Positions 10,158 through 56,268 of a stretch of 64,000 nt of DNA are shown piece by piece. Every line of letters starts with the position of its first letter. Within the stretch, counting starts at the first letter, position 1. The stretch spans positions 248,001 through 312,000 of the forward strand of contig NZ_BONW01000002.1 in the NCBI RefSeq assembly GCF_016862915.1. The letters run 5' to 3'. The translations under genes were made by a program, and so were the position numbers. This stretch comes from Plantactinospora endophytica (GTDB lineage Bacteria; Actinomycetota; Actinomycetes; Mycobacteriales; Micromonosporaceae). The notes beneath the pieces are model-generated. The model made no database searches. It worked only from the letters and a program-made list of their open reading frames with translations, and was not told the DNA's origin.

Positions 10158-10988
10158 GTGGAACTGCTGCATTCGGGCAAGGTCAGGGACGTCTACGCCG
10201 ACGGCGACGACCTGATCCTGGTCGCCTCCGACCGGGTCTCCGTCTACGACGTGGCGCTGCCGACGCCGATCCCGGACAAGGGCAAACTGCTCACCGCGCT
10301 GTCGCTCTGGTGGTTCGAGCAGCTCGCCGACCTGGTGCCGAACCACGTCGTCTCGGCCACCGACGTGCCGGCCGAGTGGGCCGGGCGGGCGATCCGGGTA
10401 CGGCGGCTGGAGATGATCCCGGTCGAGTGCATCGCGCGCGGCTACCTCACCGGTTCCGGCATCAAGGAGTACGCGAAGACCGGCGCCGTCTGCGGCGTAC
10501 CGCTGCCGCCCGGCCTGGTGGAGGCGTCGATCCTGCCCGAGCCGATCTTCACGCCGACCACCAAGGCGCCGCAGGGCGAGCACGACGAGGCGATCACCTT
10601 CGCCGACGTGGTGGCCAAGGTCGGCTCCGAGACCGCCGAGCGGCTCCGCGACGTCACCCTGGCCGTCTACCGGCGTGGCGCCGAACTCGCCGCCGACCGG
10701 GGCATCCTGGTCGCCGACACCAAACTCGAACTCGGCTGGGCACCGGACGGCACGATGGTGCTCGGCGACGAGGTGCTGACCTCGGACTCGTCCCGGTTCT
10801 GGCCGGCCGACGCATACCAGCCCGGCCGCGACCAGCTCTCGCTGAGCAAACAGTTCGTCCGGGACTGGGCGGTCGGCACCGGCTGGGACAAGACCGGACC
10901 GGCCCCCGAGATGCCGCCGGAGGTCGTCGAAGCCGCCCGAACCCGTTACGTCGAGGTCTACGAACGGCTCACCGGCCGCCGCTGGTAG
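10158..10988 (+). CDS. purC: SAICAR synthetase (PurC)
   Basis: Phosphoribosylaminoimidazole-succinocarboxamide synthase catalyses ATP-dependent joining of CAIR and aspartate in purine synthesis. The 276-residue protein begins MELLHSGKVRDVY, the family's standard N-terminus, from GTG 10158. It carries the SAICAR motifs IPVECIARGYLTGSG and LVADTKLELG. It is monocistronic and not linked to other pur genes. Its last codons (LTGRRW-stop) form the first unit of a 46-nt tandem repeat that runs to the end of the convergent glycosyltransferase gene. Confidence 0.97.
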   Translation: MELLHSGKVRDVYADGDDLILVASDRVSVYDVALPTPIPDKGKLLTALSLWWFEQLADLVPNHVVSATDVPAEWAGRAIRVRRLEMIPVECIARGYLTGSGIKEYAKTGAVCGVPLPPGLVEASILPEPIFTPTTKAPQGEHDEAITFADVVAKVGSETAERLRDVTLAVYRRGAELAADRGILVADTKLELGWAPDGTMVLGDEVLTSDSSRFWPADAYQPGRDQLSLSKQFVRDWAVGTGWDKTGPAPEMPPEVVEAARTRYVEVYERLTGRRW

Positions 10989-11105
10989 TCGACGTCTTCG
11001 AGTCTGCGGGCGCCTCACCGGCCGCCGCTGGTAGTCGACGCCTTCGGGCCTAGGAACGGCTTACCGGCCGCCGCTGGTGGTCGACACCTCCGACCCGTCG
11101 GTTGT
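10968..11105. repeat. 46-nt tandem repeat joining purC end and glycosyltransferase end
   Basis: Units begin at 10968, 11014 and 11060. The first 27 nt of units 1 and 2 are identical, so the purC ending (L-T-G-R-R-W-stop) is repeated downstream. Unit 3 differs at a few positions and supplies the stop codon of the minus-strand gene (TAA at 11063-11061). Confidence 0.9.
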
Positions 11106-12290
11106 CGGGGGCACGTCGTCGCCGGTGAGCCGGAACGCGTCGCCGCCCTGGCTGGCGTGCACGACCGGCAACCCGGCGCCGGACAACGGCAGGTCGTGTG
11201 CGGCGAGGAAGCCGGCCACCGCCGCCGACCAGGGAAAGCGCTCGGCCTGCCGGCGGGCCGCCGCCCGGCGTTCCGGAGCCGGCCGGCCGGCCAACTCCAG
11301 CACGGCGTCGGCGTACGCCGGTCCGTCGCCGGGCGCGGCCAGCCCGGCCGGACCGACCACCTCCGGCAGCGCGCTCTCCGCGCTCGCCACCACCGGGGTA
11401 CCGCTGGCCAGCGCCTCCAGGGCGGCCAGGCCGAACGTCTCCACCGGCCCGGGCGCCAGCACCACGTCGGCGGTGCCGAGCAGTCGGGCCAGCAGGTCCC
11501 GGTCGGCGACGTACCGCAGGAACCGGACCGGCAGGCCGTCCCGGGCGGCGGTCGCCCGCAGCCGCTCCCGGCGCGGCCCGTCGCCGACCACCACCAACAC
11601 CGCCGGTACGCCCCGGGCCCGCAACCCGGCCAGCGCGGCGAGGGAACGCTCGGGACGCTTCTCCGGGGAGAGTCGCCCGCAGTGCAGCAGGAGCAGCTCG
11701 TCGGGTTCGGCGTAGACGGCACGCAGCAGCGGGTCGTACCGGTCCGGGTGGAAGTGGTCGAGGTCGACCCCGAGCGGCACCTGACGCAGGTTGCCGGCGC
11801 CGATCCGTCGGAACTCCGCCGCCGCCCACGAGGTGGTGCAGACGATCTGGTCGTGCAGGGCGACGGTACGCAGGTTGAGCCGGTCGGCCACCCGACGGAG
11901 CTGACCACCGGGCAGCAGCCGGAGGAGCCCGTCCAGGCTCTCGTGCGACACCATCATGCTCCGTACGCCGTGCCGGCGGGCCCAGGCGCCGGTCCAGCGC
12001 AGCGTCGTCCGGTCGGAGATCTCCAGCCGGTCGGGACGCAGCTCGCGCAGCAGCCGGGCGAGCCGGACCCGGTCGACGATCACCCGGTAGCCGCCCATCC
12101 AGGGCACGGCCGGGCTGGCCAGGGTGATCACCCGACCCTGCTCGGTCAGCTCGTCGGTGTCGCGTCGGCCGGGCATCACCAGCACCGGCTCGTGCCCGGC
12201 GGCGGCGTACCCGGTGCCGAGCTGGCGCAGCGCGGTACGCAGCCCGCCCGAACTCTCGGTGATGAAGTTGGCCAGCCGCACGATCCTCAT
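11061..12290 (-). CDS. GT4-family glycosyltransferase
   Basis: The 409-residue protein is a GT-B fold glycosyltransferase. The N-terminal acceptor domain begins MRIVRLANFITESSGG. The C-terminal nucleotide-sugar domain has the Glu-rich signature GPVETFGLAALEALASGTPVV near residues 285-305. AGGAGG lies 6 nt before the ATG. Its close neighbour on the same strand encodes a second GT4 protein of the MgtA type, which suggests a shared role in mannosylated lipid or polysaccharide synthesis. Donor and acceptor are not determinable here. Confidence 0.88.
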   Translation of the reverse strand: MRIVRLANFITESSGGLRTALRQLGTGYAAAGHEPVLVMPGRRDTDELTEQGRVITLASPAVPWMGGYRVIVDRVRLARLLRELRPDRLEISDRTTLRWTGAWARRHGVRSMMVSHESLDGLLRLLPGGQLRRVADRLNLRTVALHDQIVCTTSWAAAEFRRIGAGNLRQVPLGVDLDHFHPDRYDPLLRAVYAEPDELLLLHCGRLSPEKRPERSLAALAGLRARGVPAVLVVVGDGPRRERLRATAARDGLPVRFLRYVADRDLLARLLGTADVVLAPGPVETFGLAALEALASGTPVVASAESALPEVVGPAGLAAPGDGPAYADAVLELAGRPAPERRAAARRQAERFPWSAAVAGFLAAHDLPLSGAGLPVVHASQGGDAFRLTGDDVPPTTDGSEVSTTSGGR

Positions 12291-12331
12291 GCCGCCTCCT
12301 CGTTCCGTTCGTCGGCGGCATGAGTTTCCGC

Positions 12332-12445: not shown

Positions 12446-12462
12446 CCCGTGGTGTCGCCCGG

Positions 12463-13635: not shown

Positions 13636-13818
13636 GGGCTCACCGTCGTGCAGGTCGTCGCCGTCCAGGTCACGGCATCATGACCTGCCGGCGAACTGTC
13701 AGCGACGAAGCGAGGAGCGCGGTGACGTGTCGATGGCTCTGCCCGGTTCGCTGCCGATCGGCCCCTGGTCACGGAGTCCAGGACCACCGTTCCGGCCCAG
13801 TGGCTGATCCTCGGGGTC

Positions 13819-14012
13819 GGGCGGTGAGCGGGACTGTTCCTCGGTGCCGGCTCATCGTCGGGCGGTGAGTGGAACTGGTCCTCCGCGTTGGCTCAGGGTT
13901 GGGCGGTGAGTGGATCTGGTCCTCCGCGTTGGCTCAGGGTTGGGCGGTGAGTGGATCTGGTCCTCGGCGTTGGCTCAGGGCTGGGCGGTGACTGGTACGA
14001 CGCCGGGGAGCG
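13819..14012. repeat. 41-nt tandem array grown from a gene end
   Basis: Units start exactly 41 nt apart at 13819, 13860, 13901, 13942 and 13983. Units 2-4 are nearly identical. The stop codon of the minus-strand gene (13977-13975) lies in unit 4, and the same T-A-Q-P-stop end is echoed in the units farther downstream. The array accounts for half of the 339-nt spacer; the rest (13636-13818) shows no gene. Confidence 0.9.
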
Positions 14013-15153
14013 GCTGTCCGGCGGGCGTCGGTGGTTGGCCCGCATGCGGAACGGTCAGCGGCGCGATCAGCCCGCCGGCCGTCAGGGCCAGCAACGCCGC
14101 GCCGGGCAGCACCGCCAGGCCGTCCGCCGGATAACTCGTGCCGGCCAGCGCGAAGAGCGACGGCGCGGCGAATATCGAGACGAACAGGGAGAGGAAGAGC
14201 ACCAGCACACCGACCGGCAGGCTGGCGACGGCGACTGCGGTCCAGAGCGCCAGGTCGCGGCCCCGACGCCCGGGCGGGCGGCGACGGAGCAGAGCCAGCA
14301 CGGCGACCAGCAGGGGCCCGGCGAGCAGCACGCCGAACGAGGTGCTCTCCTGTGCCATCCCGGCGCCGGTGCCGGTGCCCAAGGCGGCGAGCAGCAACGC
14401 CGGTAGCGCGGCACCGGCCAGCAGGACGCGCGGGCGCGGCGTCCGCCCTCGGGCCGCGCCGACGGCGAAGGCGGCCAGTACGACGAAGAGCACCGGCAGT
14501 ACGGCGGTGACCCCGGGCAGCCCGACCGGCAGGAAGGGGTGGTTTACCACCGGGGTCCCCTGGAGCAGCGGCAGCGGGGCGCAGCAGGCGGCGGCGACCG
14601 CGACGATCGCGAGCCGGCGCCCGACGACGTGCGACGGGATCTCGACGCTCGGCGGCCGGGCGAGCCAGCCGGCCGCCGCCAGCACGACGGCGGCGACGCC
14701 AAGGGTGAACGCCAGGCCGGTGCTTCCGCCGACACCGTTCCGCTCCACGATCCCGTCCACCCCGAGCAGCAACGCGGTGGTGGCCGTCGCCAGGACCAGC
14801 CCGGTCGGGCGGTGCGCGAGCACGGTCAGCAGGCCGAGCCCGGCCAGTAGGATGGCCGCCCAGCGCAGTTCGGCGACCCAGAGGAAGATCTCGCCGTCGC
14901 CGCCGGGCATCGGCGCGGTCCGCGCCACCACCGGCATCCGGGGCGTGAGCACCGCCACGGTGTACGCCCAGCAGCAGAGCGCGCCGGCCAGCCCGACCAG
15001 CCCGGCGACCCGGGTCGCGACCATCGACGCCGTGATCCCCAGGGTCTCCGGGGTCTCCGGGGTCTCCGGGGTCTCCGGGGTCTCCGGGGTCTCCGGGGTC
15101 TCCGGGGCGGACGGTGCCGGAGCGGGCGCGGCGGCTGGCTGCTCGGAGGTCAT
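13975..15153 (-). CDS. Polytopic membrane protein, unknown
   Basis: The 392-residue protein has roughly ten hydrophobic segments and a hydrophilic N-terminus. The start at ATG 15153 is chosen because a -10-like TACGCT (minus strand, 15165-15160) ends 6 nt before it, a leaderless arrangement. The longer TTG start at 15216 has no support. Residues about 17-38 are an ETP tripeptide repeat encoded by a 9-nt minisatellite. No family is recognised with confidence. It is monocistronic, and its 3' end is repeated in the downstream 41-nt array. Confidence 0.7.
   Translation of the reverse strand: MTSEQPAAAPAPAPSAPETPETPETPETPETPETPETLGITASMVATRVAGLVGLAGALCCWAYTVAVLTPRMPVVARTAPMPGGDGEIFLWVAELRWAAILLAGLGLLTVLAHRPTGLVLATATTALLLGVDGIVERNGVGGSTGLAFTLGVAAVVLAAAGWLARPPSVEIPSHVVGRRLAIVAVAAACCAPLPLLQGTPVVNHPFLPVGLPGVTAVLPVLFVVLAAFAVGAARGRTPRPRVLLAGAALPALLLAALGTGTGAGMAQESTSFGVLLAGPLLVAVLALLRRRPPGRRGRDLALWTAVAVASLPVGVLVLFLSLFVSIFAAPSLFALAGTSYPADGLAVLPGAALLALTAGGLIAPLTVPHAGQPPTPAGQPLPGVVPVTAQP
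15043..15105. repeat. In-frame 9-nt minisatellite (Glu-Thr-Pro)
   Basis: Seven 9-nt units of the type GGTCTCCGG (plus strand) encode a run of Glu-Thr-Pro in the cytoplasmic tail of the membrane protein. The unit length is a multiple of three, so copy-number change would keep the frame. Confidence 0.9.
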
Positions 15154-15227
15154 GGCGACAGCGTAGTTGTGGTCGACCGCCGCTGCGGTCCGTCGATCCG
15201 CCGTCCGCTCCGCCAAGGTCTACAGTG

Positions 15228-15395
15228 GCTCGTCCCCGGTCGCTCAGCTCTGGTCGCTCATCCCCGGTCATTCAGCTCTCGTTGCTCGGCCCCGGTCGAT
15301 CGTCCCTGGTTGGTCGGCTCTGGCCGCTCGCCCCCGGTCGCTCGTCTCCAGTCGGTCGGCTCCAGTCCGTCAGCTCCGGTCGGTCAGCTCCGGTC
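15228..15395. repeat. 14-nt tandem array, 12 units, includes a stop codon
   Basis: Twelve consecutive 14-nt units related to GGTCAGCTCCGGTC run without a gap. The unit at 15382-15395 contains the stop codon (15386-15384) of the large minus-strand WD40 gene. The next units repeat D-R-S-stop nucleotides with increasing divergence away from the gene. Confidence 0.92.
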
Positions 15396-18300
15396 GGGAC
15401 GGTTGCCGTCGAGCAGGAAGGTACGCCGCTCCTCCGGGCTGAACGGTCTGGTGGCTCGGCTGTCGACGGTGTGCAGGAGTTGTTGGAGGGAGCCGCAGAC
15501 GTCACAGCTCCAGATCCGTACCGAGCCGTCGGAGTGCACGGTGGCGAGCCGTTCGCCGTCCGGGGCGAACGCGAAGCCGAGCGGCCCGGGGCCGAGCGTA
15601 CGCAGGGTCACCGGTTCGGTGGCTCCCGAGGCGGACCAGAGCTGGACCCCGACGAGTTCCTCGCCGCCGCCGAGGATGGCGAGGTGCCGCCCGTCCGGCG
15701 TGTACGCCAGCCGGGTGGTGGCGGCACCCTGACCGGCGGCGGAGAGCACCACCCGGGCCCCGCCACCGCTCGCCGGCCAGATCCGGATGGTGCTGTCCCG
15801 GCTCAGCGCCGCCACCGAACCGCCGTCGGGGCTGAACGACACCGAGCTGACCGGTTCGGCGCCGCCGTCCAGGGTGGCGACCGGCTTCCCGGCGACGGTC
15901 CAGACGCGTACGCCGCCGTCCCCGGTACCGGTCGCCACCCGGGCACCGTCCGGGCTGAACGCCGCCGCCGCTGAGCCGGTCGGCGCCAGGTCGACGGCGA
16001 TCGGGCGGTCGTCGAGCCGGTCCCAGAGCCGGATGCCGCCGCTGCCGCTGGTCAGCAGCCGTCGGCCGTCCGGCCCGAAGACGACCCGGGTCGCCCGCAC
16101 GGCGTCGAAGGCAGCCAGTTGCCGCTTGGCCGCCCAGTCCCAGAGTCGGACCGTCCCGGTCGCGTCGAGGCTGGCCAGCCGCCGTCCGTCCGGGGCGAAG
16201 GCGACGTCCATGGTCATGCCGGCGTGCCCGGACAGTACGACCGGGGCGGCGGTGCTGACCGCGATCGTCGTACCGGCCGTCGATGGGGTTGGTCGGGCAG
16301 GTGACGAAGTGCGGGCGGGCGGTACGGGCCAGACCCGGACCGTACCGTCGAAGATGCCGGCGCTGGCCAGGTGGGTGCCGTCCGGGCTGAACCGGGCGGC
16401 GTGCACCAGACCGGCGTGCGGCTGTGCGATCGTCGGGTCGAACGGGCCGCCGATGTCCCAGCGCCGGACGGTGCCGTCCTGACCGACGCTGACCAGCCGG
16501 CCGTCCGAGGTCAGCGCGACCGCGCAGACCGTGCCGGCGTGTCCGCGCAGTGGCAGCGGGTCGAACGCACCGGTCGGGTCCCAGATCGTGATCACGCCGT
16601 ACGCGTTCTTGGTGACCAGCCGGCGCCCGTCCGGGCTGAACACGGCGGGAAAGGCGCTGCGCAGCCGGCCGAGTACCGTCGGCGGGCCGCCGTCGGTCGG
16701 CCAGCTCCGCAGCACGCCGCCGTCCTCGGTGGTGGCGTTGTCGGCGGCGACGATCCGGGTGCCGTCCGGGCTGAACAGCAGGCCGTCGGCGGTGGCGGTG
16801 GAGTCGGGCAGCGACGTCGGCGCCCGGTCCAGCACCGGCGACCCGACCTGCCAGATCCGGGTCGGGTCGCCGGTGCTGGCCACGGCGAGCCGCCGCCCGT
16901 CCGGCGACCAGGCCAGCGAGAAGACGCTGCCCCGCGCGGCCGGTAGCGGGCGGGCCCGGGGCGTGCCGGTCAGTTCCCAGATCCGGACCACGCCGGCCGA
17001 GTCCCCGGTGGCCAGCCGGCGGCCGTCCGGACTGAACGCGACGTCCCGGACCGGACCACGGTGACCGGGCAGCGACACCGGGGGCCGGCCGGGGTCGGCG
17101 GTGTCCCAGAGCCGCACCGAGGGGGACTCGCCCGCGCTGGCGACCCGCCGGCCGTCCGGGCTGATCGCCAGCGCGGTCAGCAGTTCCGGGCCCGGCTCGG
17201 CCAGCGTGACCGGTGGCAGGTCGGGTGCGGCCGGCTGCCAGACCTGTACGGACTTGTGCTCCCCGGCGGCCACGGCGTACCGGCCGTCCGGGGTCAGCTC
17301 GGCCTGCTTGATCGGCGCGGCGAAGACCTGCCGCCCCTCGATCCCGCGCCAGCTCAGCGTCGCCTGCCGCAACACCGCTTCGGCCTCGGCGTCCGGCCGC
17401 AGCTCGAAGGCCCGCCGGGCCAGCAGGAAGGCGAGCTGTGGATCGCGGGACATCTGGGCCCGCGCCCCGGCGACCAACTGCCGGTGTACGGCGAGATCCC
17501 GCTGCCCCCGCGCCTGCCGGGCCTGCACCACCGCCACCGAGGCCAGCACGGTCACCACCGAGACGACGACCGCCAGCGCGGCACCGAGCAGGCGTCGCCG
17601 CCGCCGCCGACGGGCGGTCGAGCGGTCCTCGGCCCGCCGGCTGACGTCCAGGTACTCCCGTTCCGTGCTGGTCAGGCTCTCCGGGTGCGCGTCCGCCCAC
17701 GCCCGGGCCCGGGACAGTGCCAGCCCCCGGTAGAGCCCGCCCGGGTCGTGGTCGAGCGACCGCCACACCGCCGCCGCCTGGGTGAGCTGCCGGTGCACGC
17801 GTACGCCGTCGAGGTCCTCCTCCAGCCAGCGGCGCAGCCGGGGCCAGGCGTCGAGCAGCGCCTCGTGGGCCAGCCGTACCGAACGGTCGTCCAGGGTGAC
17901 CAGTCGGGCGGCGGCGAGTCGTTCCAGTACGCCCGAGGTCAGCGCGTCCGTCTCGGCCAGTTCGGCCCGGTCCACCCGGCGGGCGGTCGGCACCCCGGCC
18001 CGGTCCAGCGGCGCCGTCGGCTCGTCCCCGGTGCCGATCTCCACCATCCGCAGCAGTACGTGCCGGGCCGCCCGCCGCTGGCCGGGGTCGAACTCCTGCC
18101 AGATCCGTTCGGCGGTCTGCGCCACCGCGCCGTCGATCCCGCCGGCCGCCTGGTAGCCGGTGAGGGTCACCGCGCTGCCCCGGCGCCGCCGCCACGCCTC
18201 CAGCAGCACGTGCGAGGCGACCGGCAGCGCCCCGGCCCGGCCCGCCACCTGGGCCACGATGGTGGAGACCAGGGCGCCCTCGACCATCGCCCCGGCGCGC

Positions 18301-19226
18301 TCGGCGGGACGTACCACGGCGTCCCGGACCTGGGCGGCGGTCATCGGCCCGACCAGCACCTGGGCGTCGGACAGCGCCGCCACCAGGTCAGGCAGCTCGG
18401 CACAGTGCCCGTAGAAGTCGGCCCGTACCCCGAGCACCACCCGCAGCCGGCTGTCCGGCGCGGCGACGGCGGCGAGCAGCGCGGCCACGAACCCGGTCCG
18501 GGCGTCGGCGTCCCGGCAGAGCGTGAAGACCTCCTCGAACTGGTCGACCACCAGCCACAGCTCCGCCTCGGCGGGAGCGTCGGCGAGCAGTTGCCGGACG
18601 GTCAGGTGCAACCGGGCCGGGTCGACGGCCAGGTCCGCGCGGAGCGCACCGGCCGGGATCCGGAGCAGCCGGGCGAGCTGTACCGCCAGTTCGCCGAGCG
18701 GATCCGGCCCGGGGGTCAGCACCAGCACCGGCGGCCGTTCCGGTCGGCTCGTGACGGCAGGCACCAGCCCGGCCCGGAGTACCGACGACTTGCCGCTGCC
18801 GGAGGCGCCGAACAGGGCCACGAACCGGCGGCCGGTCAGCCGCTGCCGCAGGTCGTCGACGACGTCCTCCCGGCCGAAGAACCACTCGGCCCGCTCCGGC
18901 CCGTACGCCAGCAGGCCCTGGTAGGGGCTGTCGTCGGGGAGCGGACCGGCCGGAGCGGGGACCTCGTCGCGGGCGAGTTGGCGCCAGCGGGCCTCCCACT
19001 CGGCCGGGTCGCCGCCGCACGCGGTCACGTACGCCAGGGTGACGGCCAGGGTCGGCAGCCGCCGCCCGCCGGCCGCCTCGGACAGGGTGGTGGCGGAGAA
19101 GTGTGCCCGTCGGGCCAGTTCCCGGTAGCCGGGGGAGCCGGCCTTCTCCCGCAGCAGGCGGAGTCCGGCGGCGAACTCCCGCACCTCCGGAGTTCCCGGC
19201 CCCAGCGCGCCCTCTGGTCGCGGCAC
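15384..19226 (-). CDS. HTH / nSTAND ATPase / WD40 repeat protein
   Basis: The 1280-residue protein has four parts. An XRE-like helix-turn-helix is at about 15-75 (YRELARRAHFSATTLSEAAGG). An nSTAND-type P-loop ATPase is at about 100-480, with Walker A GASGSGKSS at 140-148 and Walker B LWLVVDQFEE at 223-232. A single membrane helix is at about 546-568 after a poly-Arg stretch. Some 13-14 WD40 repeats (FSPDGRRLA-type motifs) run from about 640 to 1245. Such proteins are thought to be signal-sensing switches whose propeller detects a ligand. The start is GTG 19226, because the frame upstream encodes low-complexity Ser/Arg sequence. No effector gene is adjacent. Confidence 0.85.
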   Translation of the reverse strand: MPRPEGALGPGTPEVREFAAGLRLLREKAGSPGYRELARRAHFSATTLSEAAGGRRLPTLAVTLAYVTACGGDPAEWEARWRQLARDEVPAPAGPLPDDSPYQGLLAYGPERAEWFFGREDVVDDLRQRLTGRRFVALFGASGSGKSSVLRAGLVPAVTSRPERPPVLVLTPGPDPLGELAVQLARLLRIPAGALRADLAVDPARLHLTVRQLLADAPAEAELWLVVDQFEEVFTLCRDADARTGFVAALLAAVAAPDSRLRVVLGVRADFYGHCAELPDLVAALSDAQVLVGPMTAAQVRDAVVRPAERAGAMVEGALVSTIVAQVAGRAGALPVASHVLLEAWRRRRGSAVTLTGYQAAGGIDGAVAQTAERIWQEFDPGQRRAARHVLLRMVEIGTGDEPTAPLDRAGVPTARRVDRAELAETDALTSGVLERLAAARLVTLDDRSVRLAHEALLDAWPRLRRWLEEDLDGVRVHRQLTQAAAVWRSLDHDPGGLYRGLALSRARAWADAHPESLTSTEREYLDVSRRAEDRSTARRRRRRRLLGAALAVVVSVVTVLASVAVVQARQARGQRDLAVHRQLVAGARAQMSRDPQLAFLLARRAFELRPDAEAEAVLRQATLSWRGIEGRQVFAAPIKQAELTPDGRYAVAAGEHKSVQVWQPAAPDLPPVTLAEPGPELLTALAISPDGRRVASAGESPSVRLWDTADPGRPPVSLPGHRGPVRDVAFSPDGRRLATGDSAGVVRIWELTGTPRARPLPAARGSVFSLAWSPDGRRLAVASTGDPTRIWQVGSPVLDRAPTSLPDSTATADGLLFSPDGTRIVAADNATTEDGGVLRSWPTDGGPPTVLGRLRSAFPAVFSPDGRRLVTKNAYGVITIWDPTGAFDPLPLRGHAGTVCAVALTSDGRLVSVGQDGTVRRWDIGGPFDPTIAQPHAGLVHAARFSPDGTHLASAGIFDGTVRVWPVPPARTSSPARPTPSTAGTTIAVSTAAPVVLSGHAGMTMDVAFAPDGRRLASLDATGTVRLWDWAAKRQLAAFDAVRATRVVFGPDGRRLLTSGSGGIRLWDRLDDRPIAVDLAPTGSAAAAFSPDGARVATGTGDGGVRVWTVAGKPVATLDGGAEPVSSVSFSPDGGSVAALSRDSTIRIWPASGGGARVVLSAAGQGAATTRLAYTPDGRHLAILGGGEELVGVQLWSASGATEPVTLRTLGPGPLGFAFAPDGERLATVHSDGSVRIWSCDVCGSLQQLLHTVDSRATRPFSPEERRTFLLDGNRPDRS

Positions 19227-21698: not shown

Positions 21699-21749
21699 TC
21701 GCAGCACCGTACCCGGCCCGGAGGTCCGCGTCACCCGGCTGCCCGGAGG

Positions 21750-21891
21750 CCCGCGTCATCCGCCTCGGCGGCCCGCGTCATTCGGCCCGCAGTCCCGCGT
21801 CATTCGGCTCGGCGGCCCGCGTCATCCGGCGCAAGGCCGGCCGTGACCCGCTCGGCGGTGTCGACTTCACCCGCTCGGCGGTGTCGGTTCC
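21750..21891. repeat. 22-nt and 23-nt tandem arrays upstream of glpK
   Basis: Four 22-nt units start at 21750, 21772, 21794 and 21816 (core CCCGCGTCATYCG). They are followed by two 23-nt units at 21846 and 21869. The second of these contains the stop codon of the RsbW-like gene (21869-21867 on the minus strand). Confidence 0.85.
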
Positions 21892-22331
21892 GGTCCACCA
21901 CCCAGGCCGGCGCTGATCCGTACGGTGGTGCCCTCGGGACCGCTCTCCACCAGCATCTCGTCGCTGAGTTGCCGGGCCAGCCACAGCCCCCAGCCACCGG
22001 CGATCTCCGGCGCGGGGCGCCGCCGTTCGTCGAGCCGGGCGGTACCGATCCCGCCGCCGGTGTCGGAGACGAGGCAGTAGAGGGTCTGACCCGTACGCCA
22101 GAGCCGCAGCCAACCCCGCCCGCCGCCGTGCCGTACCGCGTTGGTGATCAACTCGTTGATGGCCAGTACGAAGTCGTCCAGCCTGGTGCCGTCGAGGCCG
22201 GCCGCCTCGGCGCACGCGGTGACGGTGTGCCGGATCTCGGTCACCCGGTCGGCGTCGAAGGTCTGGGCGAGCAGGGGCGGGGTCCCGTCGGGCGCGACAG
22301 CGGTGGGTGCGAGGGGATCTATGTCGCTCAT
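21867..22331 (-). CDS. RsbW/SpoIIAB-like ATP-binding regulator
   Basis: The 154-residue protein is a GHKL ATPase domain. The N box is FVLAINELITNAVRHGGG (about 65-82), the G1 box is VSDTGGGIG and the G2 region is GGWGLWLARQLSDEM. Proteins of this type bind and inhibit alternative sigma factors and phosphorylate STAS antagonists. No sigma factor or STAS gene is adjacent, so the partner is unknown. The long open frame upstream of ATG 22331 belongs to the shadow of the divergent kinase gene. Confidence 0.85.
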   Translation of the reverse strand: MSDIDPLAPTAVAPDGTPPLLAQTFDADRVTEIRHTVTACAEAAGLDGTRLDDFVLAINELITNAVRHGGGRGWLRLWRTGQTLYCLVSDTGGGIGTARLDERRRPAPEIAGGWGLWLARQLSDEMLVESGPEGTTVRISAGLGGGPEPTPPSG

Positions 22332-22475
22332 GGCCCGTCCCGCCGCTGGTCGTCGATTCCTTTCGTGGCTTTCCCACCCTACGTCAGGGTATGTAGCTGC
22401 GCATCCGGGCCGACGGGCGGGTTGACCCGGGTGTACGGGGTCGTCCCCTTCGCCGCGCTGTGCGATGGTCGGTCC

Positions 22476-23657
22476 GTGCCGGACTCGTCGAGCGACGCGC
22501 CGGGCGGGCGCCGCCGCGACCCGCCGGGCAGTTCCCAGGCCCCGCTGTGGCGGTCCATCGCCGTCTACCGGTTCGCCGCCCTGGCGTACGTCGCCGTGCT
22601 GGCGGTACGGAACCTGAACGACTACGCCCATCCGGTGGCCGGTGCGGTGCTGCTGCTGGCGATGACCGGCTGGACGGTGTGCAGCGCGTACGCGTACGCC
22701 GATCCGACCTGGCGGCGCTGGCCGCTGCTGCTGGCCGACCTGGCCGTGGTGCTGGCGGTGGTGCTGGCCGCCCCCCGGGTGGTCGGCCGGGACGTCCTCA
22801 ACGACGGCGTGCCACCGCCCAGCGTCGCCTGGCTGGCCGGGCCGGTGCTCGCCTGGGCGGTCTCCGGCGGACGGCGGCGCGGCGTGGTGGCCGCGCTGGT
22901 GATCGGCGGTACCGACCTGGTCGCCCGGGAGCGGTTCGTGCAGGGCTCGCTGACCGGCGCCGCCCTGATGCTGCTCGCCGGGATCGCCGTCGGGCACGTC
23001 GTCCGGCTCGCGGTGGTCGCCGAGGAGCGGTTGCAGCAGGCGGTCGAGTTGGAGGCGGCGACCCGGGAGCGGGAACGGCTGGCCCGAGGCATCCACGACT
23101 CCGTCCTCCAGGTGCTGGCCCTGGTCCAGCGTCGGGGCGCCCACCTGGACGGCGAGGCCGGTGAGCTGGCCCGGCTCGCTGGTGAGCAGGAGGCGGCGCT
23201 CCGGTCGCTGATCGCCAGCCGGGCGCCGACCGGGCTGGACCGGCAGGAGGTCGACCTGCGCTCACTGCTCGGCCGGTACGCCTCGGCCACCGTCTCGATC
23301 GCCGCCCCGGCGACGGCGGTGCCGCTGCCCGCCGGGGTCGCCGGTGAACTGGCGGCGGCGGTCGGCGCGGCGCTGGACAACGTGGCCCGGCACGGCGGCG
23401 GGCGGGGCTGGGTGCTGGTCGAGGACGATCCGGCGGCGGTCACCGTCTCGGTGCGCGACGACGGGCCGGGCTTCCCGCCGGGGCGGCTCGCCGAGGCGGC
23501 CGGCCAGGGGCGGCTCGGTGTGGCCCAGTCGATCGAGGGACGGATCGCCGACCTGGGCGGCACGGTCCGGATCAGCTCGGCGCCGGGCGAGGGTACCGAG
23601 GTCGAGCTGCGGGTGCCGCGCGGCCGTACCGTTCCGGAGCAGCGCGCGGACCGGTGA
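22476..23657 (+). CDS. MacS-type sensor histidine kinase
   Basis: The 393-residue protein has an N-terminal DUF5931-like membrane domain with about five helices (residues 25-185). A HisKA_3-like phosphoacceptor segment ERERLARGIHDSVLQVLALVQ follows, and then a GHKL ATPase domain (VGAALDNVARHGG; VRDDGPGF; GRLGVAQSI; GEGTEVELRVP). It would autophosphorylate the His in GIHDSV and pass the phosphate to the LuxR-type regulator 150 nt downstream. The start GTG 22476 gives MPDSSSDA. The stimulus is not predictable. Confidence 0.9.
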   Translation: MPDSSSDAPGGRRRDPPGSSQAPLWRSIAVYRFAALAYVAVLAVRNLNDYAHPVAGAVLLLAMTGWTVCSAYAYADPTWRRWPLLLADLAVVLAVVLAAPRVVGRDVLNDGVPPPSVAWLAGPVLAWAVSGGRRRGVVAALVIGGTDLVARERFVQGSLTGAALMLLAGIAVGHVVRLAVVAEERLQQAVELEAATRERERLARGIHDSVLQVLALVQRRGAHLDGEAGELARLAGEQEAALRSLIASRAPTGLDRQEVDLRSLLGRYASATVSIAAPATAVPLPAGVAGELAAAVGAALDNVARHGGGRGWVLVEDDPAAVTVSVRDDGPGFPPGRLAEAAGQGRLGVAQSIEGRIADLGGTVRISSAPGEGTEVELRVPRGRTVPEQRADR

Positions 23658-23807: not shown

Positions 23808-24473
23808 GTGACCGACGAGGGTGTGCCGGCAGTCCGGGTGATGGTGGTCGACGACCATCCGATGTGGAGGGAAGGGGTGGCCCGGGACCTCACCGAGGCG
23901 GGCTACCACGTCGTCGCCACCACCGGCGAGGGGCGGCAGGCGGTCCGGGTCGCCCCGGCCACCCGGCCCGACGTCGTCGTACTCGACCTGCAACTGCCGG
24001 ACGTCTCCGGAGTCGAGGTGCTCCGCGCGCTGCTGGCCGAGCTGCCCGGGGTGCGGGTGCTGATGCTCTCGGCCAGCGGCGAACAGCAGGACGTGCTCGA
24101 CGCGGTGAAGGCCGGGGCGACCGGCTACCTGCTCAAGTCGGCCGGGCCGGCGGAGTTCCTGGACGCGGTAGGGCGTACCGCCGCCGGTGACGCGGTCTTC
24201 ACGCCGGGACTGGCCGGGCTGGTGCTAGGGGAGTACCGGCGGATCGCCGCCGCGCCGGCACCGGCCGGCGACGACCTGCCCCGGCTCACCGAGCGGGAGA
24301 CGGAGGTACTCCGGCTGGTCGCCAAGGGGATGTCCTACAAGCAGATCGCCGGCCGGCTCGGCCTGTCGCACCGTACGGTGCAGAACCACGTGCAGAACAC
24401 GCTCGGCAAGCTGCAACTGCACAACCGGGTCGAACTGACCCGCTACGCCATCGAGCAGGGGCTGGACGACTGA
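23808..24473 (+). CDS. NarL/LuxR-family response regulator
   Basis: The 221-residue protein has a receiver domain with the acidic pocket VVDDH near residues 13-17, phosphoacceptor Asp in VVVLDLQLPD near 60 and Lys in LLKSAG. A LuxR helix-turn-helix follows (LTERETEVLRLVAKGMSYKQIAGRLGL; VQNHVQNTLGKL). It is the partner of the preceding kinase. A TAGGCT element at 23795-23800 ends 7 nt before the GTG start, so it can also be made from its own leaderless promoter. Its last codons are duplicated just downstream. Confidence 0.93.
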   Translation: MTDEGVPAVRVMVVDDHPMWREGVARDLTEAGYHVVATTGEGRQAVRVAPATRPDVVVLDLQLPDVSGVEVLRALLAELPGVRVLMLSASGEQQDVLDAVKAGATGYLLKSAGPAEFLDAVGRTAAGDAVFTPGLAGLVLGEYRRIAAAPAPAGDDLPRLTERETEVLRLVAKGMSYKQIAGRLGLSHRTVQNHVQNTLGKLQLHNRVELTRYAIEQGLDD

Positions 24474-24498
24474 TCAGGCTCCACGACTGATCAGGCTC
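24466..24498. repeat. 17-nt duplication of the response-regulator stop region
   Basis: ACGACTGATCAGGCTC occurs at 24466-24481 and again at 24483-24498. The first copy contains the true stop TGA, the second an echo of it. Confidence 0.9.
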
Positions 24499-24516
24499 GA
24501 CGGGGCGGGGGCCGGG

Positions 24517-28485: not shown

Positions 28486-29091
28486 GTGGCCACCGAACCG
28501 ATTTCCGACCTGTCCCCCGAACTCCTGATCGGTCTGCTCGCCGAACCCGACCGGCTGGCCACCTTCGCCGCCATGGTGCTCGGCGCGGGCGATCCGGCCG
28601 AGGTGGCGGAGCGGACCGGGCTGCCCGCCCGGACCGTGGTCGCCGCGCTGCGCCGGCTGGAGACCGGCGGCCTGGTCGAGACGGTGGACGGCCGGACGGT
28701 CGCCCTGGTCGGGGCGTTCAAGGAGGCGGTACGCGCACATCCGCCCGCCGCCGCCGAGCCGGACGTGGAGCTGGACCCGGACCGGGCCACCGCGACGGTA
28801 CTCCGGGCCTTCGTCCGGGACGGCCGGATCAGTCAGATGCCGGCCGCCCAGGGCAAGCGTCGGCTGCTGCTGGAACACGTCGTGACCACCTTCGAGCCGG
28901 GGGTGCGGTACTCCGAGCGTGAGGTGAACGCCCTGCTCCGGGCCTGGTACGACGACTACGCCGCGCTGCGCCGCTACCTGGTCGACGAGGTGCTGCTGAC
29001 CCGCCGGGACGGCGTCTACTGGCGCAGCGGCGGCCCGGTCGACCTCGACCCGGGTCCGGCCGCCACCGACCCCGACGGCATCGACCGTTAG
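28486..29091 (+). CDS. ArsR-like winged helix / DUF2087 regulator
   Basis: The 201-residue protein starts with a winged-helix domain (about 20-75, EVAERTGLPARTVVAALRRLETGGLV). It ends in a DUF2087 domain (about 115-180, FEPGVRYSEREVNALLRAWYDDYAALRRYLVDE, with RRDGVYW). DUF2087 occurs with ArsR/SmtB-like regulators. No conserved metal-binding Cys pair is seen, so metal sensing is doubtful. TAGCAT at 28472-28477 lies 8 nt before GTG 28486, a leaderless layout. The end (DGIDR-stop) is echoed by an 85-nt duplication shared with the convergent rsgA end. Confidence 0.8.
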   Translation: MATEPISDLSPELLIGLLAEPDRLATFAAMVLGAGDPAEVAERTGLPARTVVAALRRLETGGLVETVDGRTVALVGAFKEAVRAHPPAAAEPDVELDPDRATATVLRAFVRDGRISQMPAAQGKRRLLLEHVVTTFEPGVRYSEREVNALLRAWYDDYAALRRYLVDEVLLTRRDGVYWRSGGPVDLDPGPAATDPDGIDR

Positions 29092-29238
29092 CCCCCCGCC
29101 ACTCGGCGTCCGGTAACTCCGCTACTCGTCGGTGCCGGCCCGGCACGTCAGCAGCCCCGACGGCGTCGACCGCTAGCCCCCGCTACTCGGCGTCTGATAA
29201 CTCCGCTACTCGACGGCGCCGGCCCGGGACGCCAGCAG
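29070..29238. repeat. 85-nt tandem duplication carrying both convergent gene ends
   Basis: Copy 1 (29070-29154) contains the real stop of the DUF2087 gene and a decayed echo of the rsgA end. Copy 2 (29155-29238) contains an echo of the DUF2087 end (P-D-G-V-D-R-stop) and the real rsgA stop. The copies differ by a 1-nt indel and scattered substitutions. Confidence 0.92.
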
Positions 29239-35493: not shown

Positions 35494-35660
35494 CCCGCTG
35501 TCGACGGCGCCCGGTCGACCCGTCGACGGGCCGCTACTGACCGGTGTCGACCGGGCGCTTCTGACCCGTGGCGACCGAGCCGAACTGGCCCGGCGCTGAC
35601 TGAGCCGCTACTGACCCGTGTCGACCGAGCCGAAACTGGCCCGGTGTCGGCCGGGGCGCT
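35486..35660. repeat. Repeat array after rsrA
   Basis: Related units around CTACTGACCCGTGTCGACCG recur at least five times in irregular spacing, beginning with the rsrA stop (GACTGACCCGCTGTCGAC). It occupies most of the 290-nt spacer before the bL37 gene. No gene is seen in the rest. Confidence 0.75.
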
Positions 35661-35783
35661 AATGACCGGCCGGGCCCCGTCCGACGGATCGCCGGGCGGG
35701 CCGGGGTGCCGCGAACGCGTGTACCGCGATCGCCGACGGATCCCGTGCCCCGCCCGGCCGCCCGGGCTCGGCCTGCGCCGGGC

Positions 35784-39220: not shown

Positions 39221-39281
39221 CCTGACCTGTACACCAGAGGCGTAACACAGGCTCGATAGCGCCTCTGGTGTACAGGTCAGG
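39221..39281. terminator. Perfect 22-bp inverted repeat, bidirectional terminator
   Basis: Bases 39221-39242 and 39260-39281 are exact reverse complements with a 17-nt loop. It lies between the convergent stops of the MFS and TPR genes. It lacks a U tract but is the longest perfect stem noticed in the window. Confidence 0.8.
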
Positions 39282-41320: not shown

Positions 41321-42376
41321 GTGGCACAACCGGGAGCCGGCATGGCGGCGGACATCGCCGAGCAGCCGGAAGGCTTCGCGCGACTGCTCGAACCGGCCTC
41401 GACGGCCGCGATCGCGCAGGTCGCGGCCGTGATCGCCGAACGCCGGCCGAAGCACGTGGTGTTCACCGCACGGGGCACCTCGGACCACGCCGCGCTGTAC
41501 GCCGCGTACCTGACGGAGATCCGGCTCGGGCTGCCCGCCGGGCTCGCCTCGCCGAGCACCGTCACCGTGTTCGGCGCCCGCCCCGACCTCTCCCAGGCAC
41601 TGGTCGTCGGAGTGAGCCAGAGCGGCGGGTCGCCGGACCTGACCGAGGTGCTCCGGGTCGCCCGGGAATCCGGCGCGTTGACCCTGGCGGTGACCAACGC
41701 GCCCGACTCCCCGCTGACCGCCGCCGCCGAACTCTCCGTCGACGTGGCGGCCGGGCACGAGCGGGCGGTCGCCGCGACCAAGACGTACACCGCCGAACTG
41801 CTCGCGCTGCTGCTGCTGGTCGAGGGGATCCGGGCCGGGGACGGGGTGCTCCCGGCCGAGGAGCGGGCCGGGCTGGCGGCACTGCCCGAGCTGGCCGCGC
41901 AGACCCTCGCCGACCCGACCCCGGGGCAACTCGCTCCCCGCTACCGCTTCGCGGACCGGATGGTCACCACCGGGCGCGGGTACGCGTACCCGACGGCCCG
42001 GGAGGCGGCGCTGAAGCTGATGGAGACCAGCTACCTGCCGGCGCTCGCCTTCTCCGGCGCCGACCTGCTGCACGGCCCGCTGGCGATGACAGACCCGGAC
42101 GTACCGGTGCTGGCCGTCGTCGGCAATGGGCCGGGTGGAGCCGCGATGCGGGACGTGGTCGGCAAACTCGGCGAACGCGGCGCCGACCTGGTCGTCGTCG
42201 GCCCGGGTGGGGCTGCCGGAGCCGCCGCCCAGCTACCGGTGCCCGAGGTCGACGAGCGGTACGCGCCGCTGCTGGACATCCTGCCGGTGCAGCGGCTCGC
42301 CATGGCCCTCGCGCTGACCCGGGGCGAGGACCCCGACGCGCCACGGGGACTGAACAAGGTCACCGCCACGCTCTGA
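41321..42376 (+). CDS. Tandem SIS-domain aminosugar enzyme (GlmS/NagB-II-like)
   Basis: The 351-residue protein has two sugar-isomerase (SIS) domains: FTARGTSDHAALYA and GVSQSGGSPDL with ATKTYTAELLAL, then TGRGYAYPTAREAALKLMET and ADLLHGPLAM. The layout matches the isomerase half of GlmS without the glutaminase domain, as in glucosamine-6-phosphate deaminase (NagB-II) or AgaS proteins. GTG 41321 is chosen because GAGGAGG lies 5 nt upstream; an in-frame ATG at 41285 lies before the ribosome site. The stop region is duplicated 19 nt downstream. No aminosugar transport genes are adjacent. Confidence 0.85.
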   Translation: MAQPGAGMAADIAEQPEGFARLLEPASTAAIAQVAAVIAERRPKHVVFTARGTSDHAALYAAYLTEIRLGLPAGLASPSTVTVFGARPDLSQALVVGVSQSGGSPDLTEVLRVARESGALTLAVTNAPDSPLTAAAELSVDVAAGHERAVAATKTYTAELLALLLLVEGIRAGDGVLPAEERAGLAALPELAAQTLADPTPGQLAPRYRFADRMVTTGRGYAYPTAREAALKLMETSYLPALAFSGADLLHGPLAMTDPDVPVLAVVGNGPGGAAMRDVVGKLGERGADLVVVGPGGAAGAAAQLPVPEVDERYAPLLDILPVQRLAMALALTRGEDPDAPRGLNKVTATL

Positions 42377-42395
42377 GACCACCGCCACGCTCTGA
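42358..42395. repeat. 19-nt duplication of SIS gene stop region
   Basis: CACCGCCACGCTCTGA occurs ending at 42376 (the real stop) and again ending at 42395, so T-A-T-L-stop is repeated exactly. Confidence 0.92.
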
Positions 42396-49682: not shown

Positions 49683-49970
49683 TCCTGACGGTGACACATG
49701 TCGATGACGCATGATGACCGAGCGTAGTTGCCGACTGCGGAGCGTCATCGTACGGCGATGAACTCCTTCGGCCTCGGTTTCGGCCGGTGTCCGATGCGTC
49801 TCCCCGAGTCGGGTAATCGAGGGTGGAATCGCGGTCGGTGGGTGCGAAATCACTTCGGGTTCGGTGTCGGGGAATTGATCAGCGGAATGTCGTCGATCCA
49901 CTATCCATCGTCACCACAACAGCAGAACGCGTTCCCGGAACAACGGAACGTGTTAGCCCGGAACGGCAGA

Positions 49971-49999
49971 ACGCCCCGGGGGTACGAGCCCCGGGGCGT
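49971..49999. terminator. Terminator after whiB1
   Basis: A perfect 11-bp stem (49971-49981 with 49989-49999) with a 7-nt loop lies 20 nt past the whiB1 stop on the minus strand. The rest of the spacer from 49683 holds only a weak dyad (49926-49954) and no gene. Confidence 0.7.
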
Positions 50000-50019: not shown

Positions 50020-50277
50020 TCAGGCAGAGTGAGCGCGCAGGACCCGAAGGCCACCACGGCGCTTGACGGCGCGCCGTTCTTCTTCGCTCATTCCGCCCCA
50101 GACTCCGGCGTCCTGACCGGATTCGAGTGCCCACTGCAGGCACTCGTCGGTCACGGAGCAACGCCGGCAGACGGCCTTGGCCTGCTCGACCTGCAGGACT
50201 GCCGGCCCGGACGTTCCGATCGGAAAGAACAGCTCCGGGTCCTCGTCGCGGCAGGCAGCATGGTGGCGCCAGTCCAT
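50020..50277 (-). CDS. whiB1: WhiB1/WblE essential iron-sulfur regulator
   Basis: The 85-residue protein has the WhiB1/WblE sequence: MDWRHHAACRDEDPELFFP, AVCRRCSVTDECLQWALESG, GVWGGMSEEERRAVKRR. Four Cys hold an NO-sensitive [4Fe-4S] cluster, and the protein binds the principal sigma factor. AGGAG lies 8 nt before the ATG. The 430-nt upstream spacer holds two CRP-like sites (50481-50496 and 50541-50556). The gene lies near pdtaS, as in M. tuberculosis (Rv3219/Rv3220c). Confidence 0.95.
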   Translation of the reverse strand: MDWRHHAACRDEDPELFFPIGTSGPAVLQVEQAKAVCRRCSVTDECLQWALESGQDAGVWGGMSEEERRAVKRRGGLRVLRAHSA

Positions 50278-51699: not shown

Positions 51700-52104
51700 G
51701 TGACAACGGACCCCGAACCGGCACCCGGCCCACTGCGCTGGGCGGTGTGGCTGCTCCGCGCCGAGGGGATCGGGCTGGCCCTGCTGACGCTCTTCCTGGT
51801 CTACGAACTGTTCACCGCGACCGCGACCGATCTGCTCTCCGCACTCCTGGTCACCGTCTTCGCGGCGGGCGGCGCGGTGCTGCTCTGGGCGATCGGCACC
51901 GCACTCGGCCGACGCCGCTCGGCGGCCCGTGCCCCGGCCATCGTGTTGCAGCTCATGCTGCTGCCGGTCGGCTACTACATGATCGTCGGCGGGCTGGCCT
52001 GGCTGGGCGGGCCGCTGATCGCACTCGGTCTGCTGGTCGTCGGCCTGCTGATCAGTACGGCGACCAACCGGGCGCTCGGCTTCGACACCGAACGGGCGGC
52101 CTGA
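51700..52104 (+). CDS. Small four-helix membrane protein, unknown
   Basis: The 134-residue protein has four predicted membrane helices (about 17-38, 44-66, 76-95, 98-118) and short charged ends. GTG 51700 is supported by TATCGT at 51687-51692 exactly 7 nt upstream, a leaderless layout. No family is recognised. It is divergent from the lipid-kinase gene with only 42 nt between starts, so the promoters overlap. Confidence 0.7.
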   Translation: MTTDPEPAPGPLRWAVWLLRAEGIGLALLTLFLVYELFTATATDLLSALLVTVFAAGGAVLLWAIGTALGRRRSAARAPAIVLQLMLLPVGYYMIVGGLAWLGGPLIALGLLVVGLLISTATNRALGFDTERAA

Positions 52105-52341
52105 CGGCTGCCGGTGCGCGAGGCTGACCGGACGGCTGTAGCGCGCAAGCGGAATGGTGAGTGACGCGGCCGCCGGCCCGGAGGGTGCGCGTGGATGACC
52201 TGACGGCTGTAGCGGCCCACCGATCCGCGGGCTTCGACTGGTTCTGACGCGGGCCGGCGAGCGACAAGGCGACTCGACGGCGCCGGAGGCCACGGTCGGC
52301 TCGACGGCTGTCGGTTGGCTCGACGGCTGTCGCCGGAGGGT

Positions 52342-52393
52342 TCAGACCTCAGCGGCGCACCGGCGGCTCAGACCTCGGCGGCGCGCCGGGTGA
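52342..52393. repeat. 26-nt duplication of RsbW-like gene end
   Basis: TCAGACCTC begins units at 52342 and 52368. The second holds the true stop of the minus-strand gene; the first encodes R-C-A-A-E-V-stop against the gene's R-R-A-A-E-V-stop. The preceding spacer from 52105 has further GACGGCTGT repeats and no gene. Confidence 0.88.
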
Positions 52394-52775
52394 GCAGGAC
52401 GATGGTGGCCCGGTCGCCGGTGGCGGTCGCCGTGGCCGAGGTGGTCAGCGCGGTCAGCACCTTCCAGGCGAACGACGACTCGGCCGGCAGTCGTGCGCCC
52501 CGGGTGGTGGTGACGGAGACCTCGACGGTCAGCGCGTCGTCGGTAACCGCGAACCGGCAGTCCAGTTCGGCGTCCCGGGTCGCGATGGCCAGCAGCATGG
52601 CGCAGGCCTCGTCGACGGCGATCCGCAGATCCTCGATCTCGTCGAGGGCGAAGTGCAGGCGTGCGGCGAGGCCGGCGGTCGCCGTCCGCAGCACACCGAG
52701 GTAACCACCGTCGGCGGGCACGGTGAGCAGGACGACGTCGTCGCCGGTCGTCGGCGGTGTGGTCAGCGAAGTCAC
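52368..52775 (-). CDS. RsbW-like anti-sigma factor
   Basis: The 135-residue protein is a compact GHKL domain with FALDEIEDLRIAVDEACAMLL (N-box helix, Asp and Glu present) and a C-terminal FAWKVLTALTTSATATATGDRATIVLL. The G1 box is not clearly recognisable, as in other SigF/SigB-type anti-sigma factors of this subgroup. It is one of two RsbW-like genes in the window. No sigma or antagonist gene is adjacent. GTG 52775 is the chosen start. Confidence 0.8.
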   Translation of the reverse strand: MTSLTTPPTTGDDVVLLTVPADGGYLGVLRTATAGLAARLHFALDEIEDLRIAVDEACAMLLAIATRDAELDCRFAVTDDALTVEVSVTTTRGARLPAESSFAWKVLTALTTSATATATGDRATIVLLTRRAAEV

Positions 52776-53310: not shown

Positions 53311-53393
53311 GGGATCCTCCAAGGCACGTCTGTGATGATCCAGGATGACAGTACTCCTGCGATATGTCCCCGAAGGGGCGGAGGTGAAACTCG

Positions 53394-55121: not shown

Positions 55122-55290
55122 CCGGGCACTCCGACCCGACGCCGACGACATCCGGGCTGGCCCGGCTCACCCGGCCCAGCGTCGGGCGGTGACGGCGGAC
55201 GGCTGCTGAGTCGCCGACGACGGGCGGGCTGGTGGCGGCCGGGCCGCCGACGGCGGGCGACCGGTTACGGCCCGGTGTAACGTGTCGATC

Positions 55291-56244
55291 ATGCGTGCCG
55301 CCTACGCCTCGATGTTCGATGCCGACGATCCGCTGGCCGCGCTGGTCGTCGGGGATCGACCCGAGCCGGCCCATCCGGAGCCGGACTGGGTAACGGTGCA
55401 GGTCCGGGCGAGTTCGCTCAACCATCACGACGTCTGGTCGTTGCGCGGGGTCGGGCTGGCCGCCGACCGGCTGCCGATGATCCTCGGCTGCGACGCCGCG
55501 GGCGTGGACCCGGACGGCAACGAGGTCGTGGTCTATCCGGTGGTTCCGGACCCGGCCGATCCCCGGGGGCTGTCGCTGCTCTCCGAACGGCATCCCGGCA
55601 CGCTCGCCGAGCGGGTGGCGGTGCCGCGCGCCAACCTGGTGCCGAAGCCGCCCGGGCTCACCTTCGCCGAGGTCGCCTGCCTGCCGACCGCCTGGCTGAC
55701 CGCGTACCGGATGCTGACCACCCGGGGCAGGGTGGAGGCGGGAGAGTCGGTGCTGGTGCAGGGGGCCGGTGGCGGCGTGGCGACCGCCGCCGTGGTGCTC
55801 GCGGTGGCGCTGGGCAAGCGGGTGTACGCGACCAGCCGCGACCCGGGCAAGCGGGACCGGATCACCGGGCTGGGCGCGACGGCGGTGGAGCCGGGAGCCC
55901 GGCTGCCGGAGCGGGTCGACGTGGTGATCGAGACCGTCGGTGCCGCGACCTTCGACCACTCGCTGAAGTCGGCCGCACCGGGCGCCCGGATCGTCGTCTC
56001 CGGCGCGACCGCCGGGTACGAGCCGCCGGTGAACCTCCGTCGGGTCTTCGCCATGCAACTGGAGATCCTGGGCTCGACCATGGGTACCCCGGCGGAACTG
56101 GCCGAGCTGCTCGGACTCTGCGTGCAGCGGGGGATCCGGCCGGTGATCGACAGCAGCTACCCGTTCTCGGAGGTCCGGCCGGCGTTCGCCCGACTGCTCT
56201 CCGGAGAGGTCTTCGGCAAGGTGGTGCTGGACCACACCGCGTAG
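55291..56244 (+). CDS. Zinc-independent MDR oxidoreductase (quinone-reductase-like)
   Basis: The 317-residue medium-chain dehydrogenase/reductase has a GroES-like N-terminal domain (SSLNHHDVWSLRGVG; LGCDAAGVV-like segment). Its Rossmann domain has VLVQGAGGGVATAAVVLA. The four-Cys structural-zinc lobe and catalytic zinc ligands are absent. It probably reduces a quinone or enone with NADPH. TAACGT at 55278-55283 ends 7 nt before ATG 55291, supporting that start and leaderless translation. The last 20 nt are imperfectly repeated after the stop. Confidence 0.88.
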   Translation: MRAAYASMFDADDPLAALVVGDRPEPAHPEPDWVTVQVRASSLNHHDVWSLRGVGLAADRLPMILGCDAAGVDPDGNEVVVYPVVPDPADPRGLSLLSERHPGTLAERVAVPRANLVPKPPGLTFAEVACLPTAWLTAYRMLTTRGRVEAGESVLVQGAGGGVATAAVVLAVALGKRVYATSRDPGKRDRITGLGATAVEPGARLPERVDVVIETVGAATFDHSLKSAAPGARIVVSGATAGYEPPVNLRRVFAMQLEILGSTMGTPAELAELLGLCVQRGIRPVIDSSYPFSEVRPAFARLLSGEVFGKVVLDHTA

Positions 56245-56268
56245 CGCCGGACCGCACCGCGTCCGCCT
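56229..56268. repeat. 20-nt duplication of oxidoreductase gene end
   Basis: GGACCACACCGCGTAGCGCC (with the stop TAG) is followed directly by a 16/20 identical copy, and then by looser CCGGTGTCC-type repeats to about 56335. Confidence 0.75.

Follow-up and report, generated by a model that had tools for sequence, protein, structure and literature searches.

The mycobacterial interspersed repetitive units (MIRUs) are related to each other in sequence. According to the available portions of one report (PMC2734929), they constitute a named repeat class with tandem units of 40–100 bp in spacers and occupy 41 sites in one genome; the same portions describe a variable number tandem repeat (VNTR) in the rnc-fpg1 spacer, which measures 279–358 bp in the Mycobacterium tuberculosis complex compared with 1–54 bp in the other mycobacteria shown, and the copy number of which differs among strains and is associated with fpg1 expression. 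The available part of a second paper presents prokaryotic satellites as unique, scattered, and partly noncoding tandem repeats ascribed to replication anomalies, and the term "stop codon" was not found in that part (PMC6749651); the available text of a third stresses the constant unit size of bacterial satellites (PMC8161180). A literature search, in which mostly titles and the openings of abstracts were judged and subscription journals largely lay outside, yielded no paper that treats tandem repeats across stop codons as a category of their own. A separate study of TAACTGA direct repeats in Beggiatoaceae (PMC4679880) reportedly mentions stop codons ten times. In the present study, we analyzed a 64-kb stretch of DNA (the window), part of the 9.68-Mb genome of a soil-dwelling Plantactinospora, in which an initial annotation had reported that the ends of at least nine genes, stop codon included, are repeated in tandem directly downstream, an arrangement that we call a stop echo. 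All nine were recovered by ungapped self-comparison anchored on the stop. The echoes are, with good probability, frequent small tandem duplications of the microhomology type that are retained where constraint is lowest.

Taken singly, the Plantactinospora arrays all belong to a known kind of minisatellite. Minisatellites or VNTRs consist of head-to-tail units of approximately 10–100 nt, and the units here mostly measure 13–70 nt (median, 23 nt) at 1.8–12.1 copies. A preferred unit length was considered and dropped because the distribution is smooth, and in this the arrays differ from satellites of constant unit size (PMC8161180). Similar to the prokaryotic satellites described in the accessible text of PMC6749651, they are unique, scattered, and partly noncoding. 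They resemble MIRUs in forming tandem units in spacers (PMC2734929, available portions), but each Plantactinospora locus has its own sequence and unit length. The accessible account of the rnc-fpg1 VNTR offers the closest parallel, being a lineage-specific tandem array that lies in a spacer and starts 40 bp past the rnc stop, which matches the position of peak array coverage here; by contrast, the present genome contains hundreds of unrelated arrays with no sign of function in what were comparisons between species only (PMC2734929).

Stop echoes are not confined to the window; they occur across the genome at rates far beyond those of chance. Each stop was scored by its best ungapped copy 8–149 nt downstream, with a threshold of at least 15. 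In sample 1, which comprised 1.264 Mb of the genome (approximately 13%, window included), 80 of 1038 stops reached this score compared with 16 starts (p = 7e-12), 13 intragenic points, and none of the resampled sequences, each out of 1038. A replicate of a further 0.4 Mb (approximately 4% of the genome) yielded echoes at 29 of 336 stops versus 4 of 336 starts, and stops are thus enriched over starts in both samples. In the array coverage profile, arrays called by Tandem Repeats Finder lay over 69 stops (6.6%) and 11 starts (1.1%) of 1039 each. The window was above average, with 9 of its 52 called genes scoring at least 15 at the stop (10 with the DUF2087 frame added) versus 71 of 986 stops in the rest of sample 1. 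Genes were obtained from a custom codon-usage caller; when the first 12 calls on one E. coli stretch were checked against annotation, 11 agreed at both ends (the first gene being truncated by the stretch), the start of secM differed, and yacG was missed. In the comparison across congeners, the DUF2087 frame was substituted for one called gene after a Pfam hit, its start being set by hand. Genes near the ends of stretches were excluded, the margin being 700 nt for the stop-echo count in sample 1, 600 nt for the array coverage profile, 450 nt for the replicate and the family sets, and 400 nt for sharing, conservation, and the rescoring of named gene ends.

Compared with the 3' spacer behind them, stop codons do not appear to be preferred targets. 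Among genes followed by a spacer of more than 40 nt in sample 1, an echo was found at the stop in 80 of 715 and at position +40 in 86 of 715 (p = 0.68), and the replicate gave 27 and 34 of 221, respectively (p = 0.41). Convergent spacers in three length classes between 40 and 300 nt revealed the same equality of stop and +40 (15.2% and 15.2%, 14.7% and 13.7%, 15.0% and 17.5%). Array coverage was highest at +40 to +60 (14%) and not at the stop, decreased to 5–7% beyond +180, and was 1.9% within genes. We therefore dropped the targeting of stop codons that the initial annotation had implied. The refuting outcome that it had named, repeats equally frequent anywhere in the spacers and no enrichment at stops, holds in half: stops are not enriched over the rest of the 3' spacer, whereas the repeats are far from equally distributed over all spacers.

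The geometry of the arrays and their reading frames are what would be expected of random tandem duplication with the protein protected. Of 63 stop-covering arrays, 57 extend into the gene by no more than approximately one unit, and the depths are spread from zero to one unit. A unit straddling the stop does no more harm than one lying in the spacer, since translation terminates within copy 1 and yields the same protein, and random duplication therefore produces this one-unit limit; a gene end is echoed whenever the unit chances to start within the gene at a depth of no more than one unit length. Within genes, a frame filter is evident: unit length is divisible by 3 in 90% of 267 arrays wholly inside genes versus 44% of 169 spacer arrays.

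The arrays persist where sequence is least conserved. Coverage in sample 1 was 13.6% of convergent, 8.2% of codirectional, and 3.1% of divergent spacers, and the replicate gave 20.7%, 8.7%, and 4.1%, respectively. Conservation between related genomes, computed with array-bearing pairs removed, was low behind the stops of convergent pairs (0.53–0.63 from 0 to +80), higher behind those of codirectional pairs (0.77–0.82), and highest before the starts of divergent pairs (0.82–0.90 from −200 to −1). The order of array coverage reverses that of conservation, and the main gradient is therefore explained by relaxed constraint. We infer that most of the 3' bias, too, stems from relaxed constraint and not from a local hotspot of mutation.

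The units turn over rapidly between relatives. In the comparative set, 12 of 80 echo genes had fewer than two orthologues; among the other 68, the unit was private in 61 and shared in 7. At 95–98% flank identity, 0 of 9 echoes were common to the nearest relative, and at 92–95%, 3 of 33 were; the 98–101% bin was not used because it mostly set one genome against itself (G005 = L086), and P. mayteni (L023 = G002) was omitted from the genome pairs. The duplications are thus recent, as the initial annotation had supposed, and its view of a recurring process instead of one repeat family agrees with the smooth unit lengths and mostly private units. Each congener carries its own set of echoed genes, and copy number differs between species, the comparisons being between species only. 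Behind the gene at 52368, the unit is 26 nt in the window genome and 15 nt in the congener G006. The orthologues of the gene at 39307 carry a near-perfect 45-nt duplication in P. mayteni and a 25-nt duplication in G006, and no echo was found in the window genome or in the other four congeners. Plain unduplicated sequence stands next to duplicated sequence in several pairs, including Salinispora L082/L077 and Micromonospora L039/L033.

The breakpoints point to a microhomology-type process. Among perfect two-copy duplications, an overhang was lacking in 4 of 63 noncoding and 18 of 61 coding cases, whereas breakpoints blind to sequence would leave approximately half without one (a rough estimate, with a match probability of approximately 0.3 per base). 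The noncoding overhangs are longer than chance, and slippage or repair at short direct repeats is therefore favored. Slippage in general, of which the initial annotation had proposed a form tied to paused or terminating transcription, fits these data and would be the molecular step. Frequent small tandem duplications, mostly of 13–70 nt, would arise at short direct repeats through slippage during replication, or through a comparable process based on microhomology, and would be lost or scrambled fast. They would persist where an insertion is harmless, most between convergent genes, less behind genes in codirectional pairs, and least in divergent promoter regions. The cause of the pattern is probably ordinary, namely fast, mostly neutral tandem duplication seen at gene edges.

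Several observations weigh against this reading. The microhomology is overestimated because some overhangs are partial third copies. Uniform placement over all spacers predicts 42 stop overlaps and 23 start overlaps, whereas 62 and 5 were seen; a unit-based null gives 22 expected and 30 seen for convergent spacers and 16 expected and 33 seen for the codirectional stop side. Most of the excess over uniform placement arises because arrays crowd behind genes, and a copy held still by the gene would remain recognizable for longer and would therefore add a mild excess at the stop. In codirectional array-free pairs, conservation is alike on the stop side (0.77–0.82) and the start side (0.75–0.83), and yet 91 of 128 codirectional arrays lie in the stop half and 37 in the start half (approximately 2.4 to 1), an asymmetry for which relaxed constraint does not obviously account. 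Young arrays (n = 26; 10 convergent, 13 codirectional, and 3 divergent) are no more evenly spread than old ones.

A modest 3' hotspot is accordingly possible. In a stronger form, gene 3' ends would be mutational hotspots at which terminating or colliding transcription, through R-loops or forks stalled between converging genes, triggers slippage. The codirectional preference for the stop half despite similar base conservation on both sides would follow from such a hotspot, as would coverage that is approximately twofold higher at +40 to +140 than beyond +180 and the richness of convergent spacers, young arrays included (10 in 35 kb versus 3 in 75 kb of divergent spacer). However, conservation too reaches its minimum in convergent spacers, so the same order would follow from constraint, and selection against insertions near promoters should exceed what substitutions show. 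We regard the hotspot as doubtful. The still wider claim, that in Micromonosporaceae the 3' ends of genes, and those of converging genes in particular, are genuine transcription-driven duplication hotspots and that this is a main route by which spacers lengthen and gene tails are reshaped, appears equally unlikely to us. A test could tell whether the excess left behind stops stems from the termination of transcription or from promoter-side constraint alone, and the systematic 3' bias could be worth a brief note.

Selection on the copies, which the initial annotation had raised in the form of back-up stops and transcription-ending signals, is not supported. Arrays do sit where 3' untranslated regions and terminators are expected, but the stable hairpin beyond composition that marks an intrinsic terminator was not found in echo spacers: the mean folding z was −0.38 in 61 echo spacers versus −1.10 in 150 array-free spacers, and values below −2.5 occurred in 11% versus 23%. 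Echo spacers being less hairpin-rich than array-free ones, terminator selection was dropped, and multiplied terminators are a very improbable explanation. Extra copies selected as back-up stop codons are even harder to credit. Although 52 of 64 copy-2 stops are still stop codons, the units are mostly private, and offsets divisible by 3 are at the chance level (43 of 126, p = 0.85, pooled over four sets). Identity at copy-2 stop triplets (158 of 170 positions, 0.929) equals the 0.925 predicted for a frozen copy 1 and a neutral copy 2 from the 0.850 identity of the spacer parts of the same pairs. An apparent extra conservation of these stops (0.929 versus 0.856 elsewhere) was dropped because it equals this expectation, and a control anchored at +40 revealed no anchor bias (0.829 versus 0.834). 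An excess of remainder-2 offsets in sample 1 (29 of 56) was also dropped, being absent from three further sets. Repeats over stop codons thus call for no regulatory reading without a test. Insertion of a dispersed MIRU-like family at gene ends is scarcely credible: mycobacterial repeat units do occupy intergenic spacers (PMC2734929, in its available text), but the units here are unlike in length and sequence, and no dispersed copies of the 10958, 12332, 13810, and 29056 arrays, that is, no single unit sequence at many loci, appeared among the matches listed (seven genomes, best 40 candidates each).

The excess of echoes at stops over starts extends beyond the window genome, and Plantactinospora is at the upper end of a wider tendency. 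Echoes were found at 24 of 332 stops and 4 of 332 starts in the six congeners. For the wider family set, 64 of 80 loci were used in the stop-versus-start counts, and these counts are not independent, the loci sharing the purC region. Micromonospora loci gave 32 stops and 3 starts of 728, Salinispora 2 and 0 of 116, a Phytohabitans/Planosporangium/Rugosimonospora set 1 and 0 of 80, and a mixed Streptosporangiales set 5 and 0 of 146; the last group has a high noncoding repeat coverage (0.142). Stops and starts numbered 4 and 0 of 77 in G028 and 3 and 0 of 96 in G040, with little signal in G014 (1 and 1 of 74) and G035 (1 and 0 of 49) and no echo at either end in the 57 genes of G017. Escherichia coli K-12 had almost none (1 and 0 of 164). 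These numbers quantify how mutation reshapes the spacers of high-GC actinomycetes over a few percent of divergence.

Within the window, the array at 10958..11093 (46-nt unit, 3.0 copies) lies over genes on both strands, spanning the purC stop (10986-10988, +) and the end of a convergent glycosyltransferase gene (11061, −). At the purC stop (10988), 75 of 91 bases match at offset 46. The purC protein is 95% identical to that of P. mayteni, where the array is absent and 14 nt separate the aligned flanks compared with 184 nt in the window. In the region 11061-11186, the glycosyltransferase gene terminates within the array, and the protein has approximately 26 extra unaligned C-terminal residues relative to its P. 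mayteni orthologue, the gene for which overlaps purC by 20 nt. Judged from the alignment, array DNA seems to have been turned into coding sequence in this tail, which suggests that a duplication can supply a neighboring gene with a new C-terminal end.

A second two-ended array at 29056..29238 (84-85-nt unit, 2.2 copies, genes on both strands) covers the DUF2087 stop (29091, +; 55 of 64 bases matching at offset 84 and 25 of 27 at offset 85) and the rsgA stop (29206, −; 55 of 62 at offset 84). On the minus strand, the array at 13810..13995 (41-nt unit, 4.5 copies) covers the stop of the membrane gene at 13975-15216, which has no Pfam family, with 125 of 139 bases matching at offset 41. Inside this gene, a mismatch-free 9-nt unit is repeated 7.3 times at 15042-15107, likely a recent expansion within coding sequence. 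The array at 15228..15396 (−; 14-nt unit, 12.1 copies) covers the stop of the nSTAND/WD40 gene at 15384-19184, matching 105 of 143 bases at offset 28 and 114 of 159 at offset 14.

The remaining echoes are shorter. The end of the RsbW-like gene at 21867-23144 (−) has a 23-nt copy at 21844..21886, in which 19 of 20 bases match at offset 23 and the copy-2 stop is gone (TGA to TCA); a separate 22-nt array lies beyond it at 21713-21830. The second RsbW-like gene (52368-52775, −) has a 26-nt copy at 52339..52389, with 22 of 25 bases matching at offset 26 and a separate 19-nt array beyond it at 52293-52332. On the plus strand, a 17-nt copy of the end of the response-regulator gene (23808-24473) lies at 24460..24502 (23 of 26 bases at offset 17), and a 19-nt copy of the end of the SIS gene (41342-42376) lies at 42361..42395 (offset 19, score 16). 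The stop-anchored ungapped self-comparison found no echo at the gene end at 52104.

The initial annotation had also listed four weaker cases, the assignment of which to particular genes was made in this analysis. The glycosyltransferase at 11061 holds, lying in the purC array, whereas the other three arrays start 27–46 nt past the stop. These are the zf-HC2 (rsrA-like) spacer array at 35522..35669 (25/50-nt unit), which starts 29 nt past the stop at 35493 and leaves it uncovered; the WhiB spacer array at 49918..49974 (23-nt unit), 46 nt past the WhiB stop at 50020 (−); and the zinc dehydrogenase spacer array at 56271..56336 (15-nt unit), 27 nt past the stop at 56244, where an additional sub-threshold echo matches 52 of 77 bases.

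Three further features were noted in the window. Two tRNA genes with the same Rfam score (2868-2941 and 3230-3303) lie 290 nt apart, with a 15/44-nt tandem array between them at 3050-3159. A 41-nt unit duplicated at 97% at 62690-62771 extends across the start of a small gene call without a Pfam family (62757-62954) and is a counterexample to the 3' bias, provided that this gene is real. Past the gene at 39307-41151 (−), a long near-perfect inverted repeat at 39224-39278, which recurs in the congener G004, where both arms carry a corresponding change (compared by eye), looks like a conserved terminator or another hairpin.

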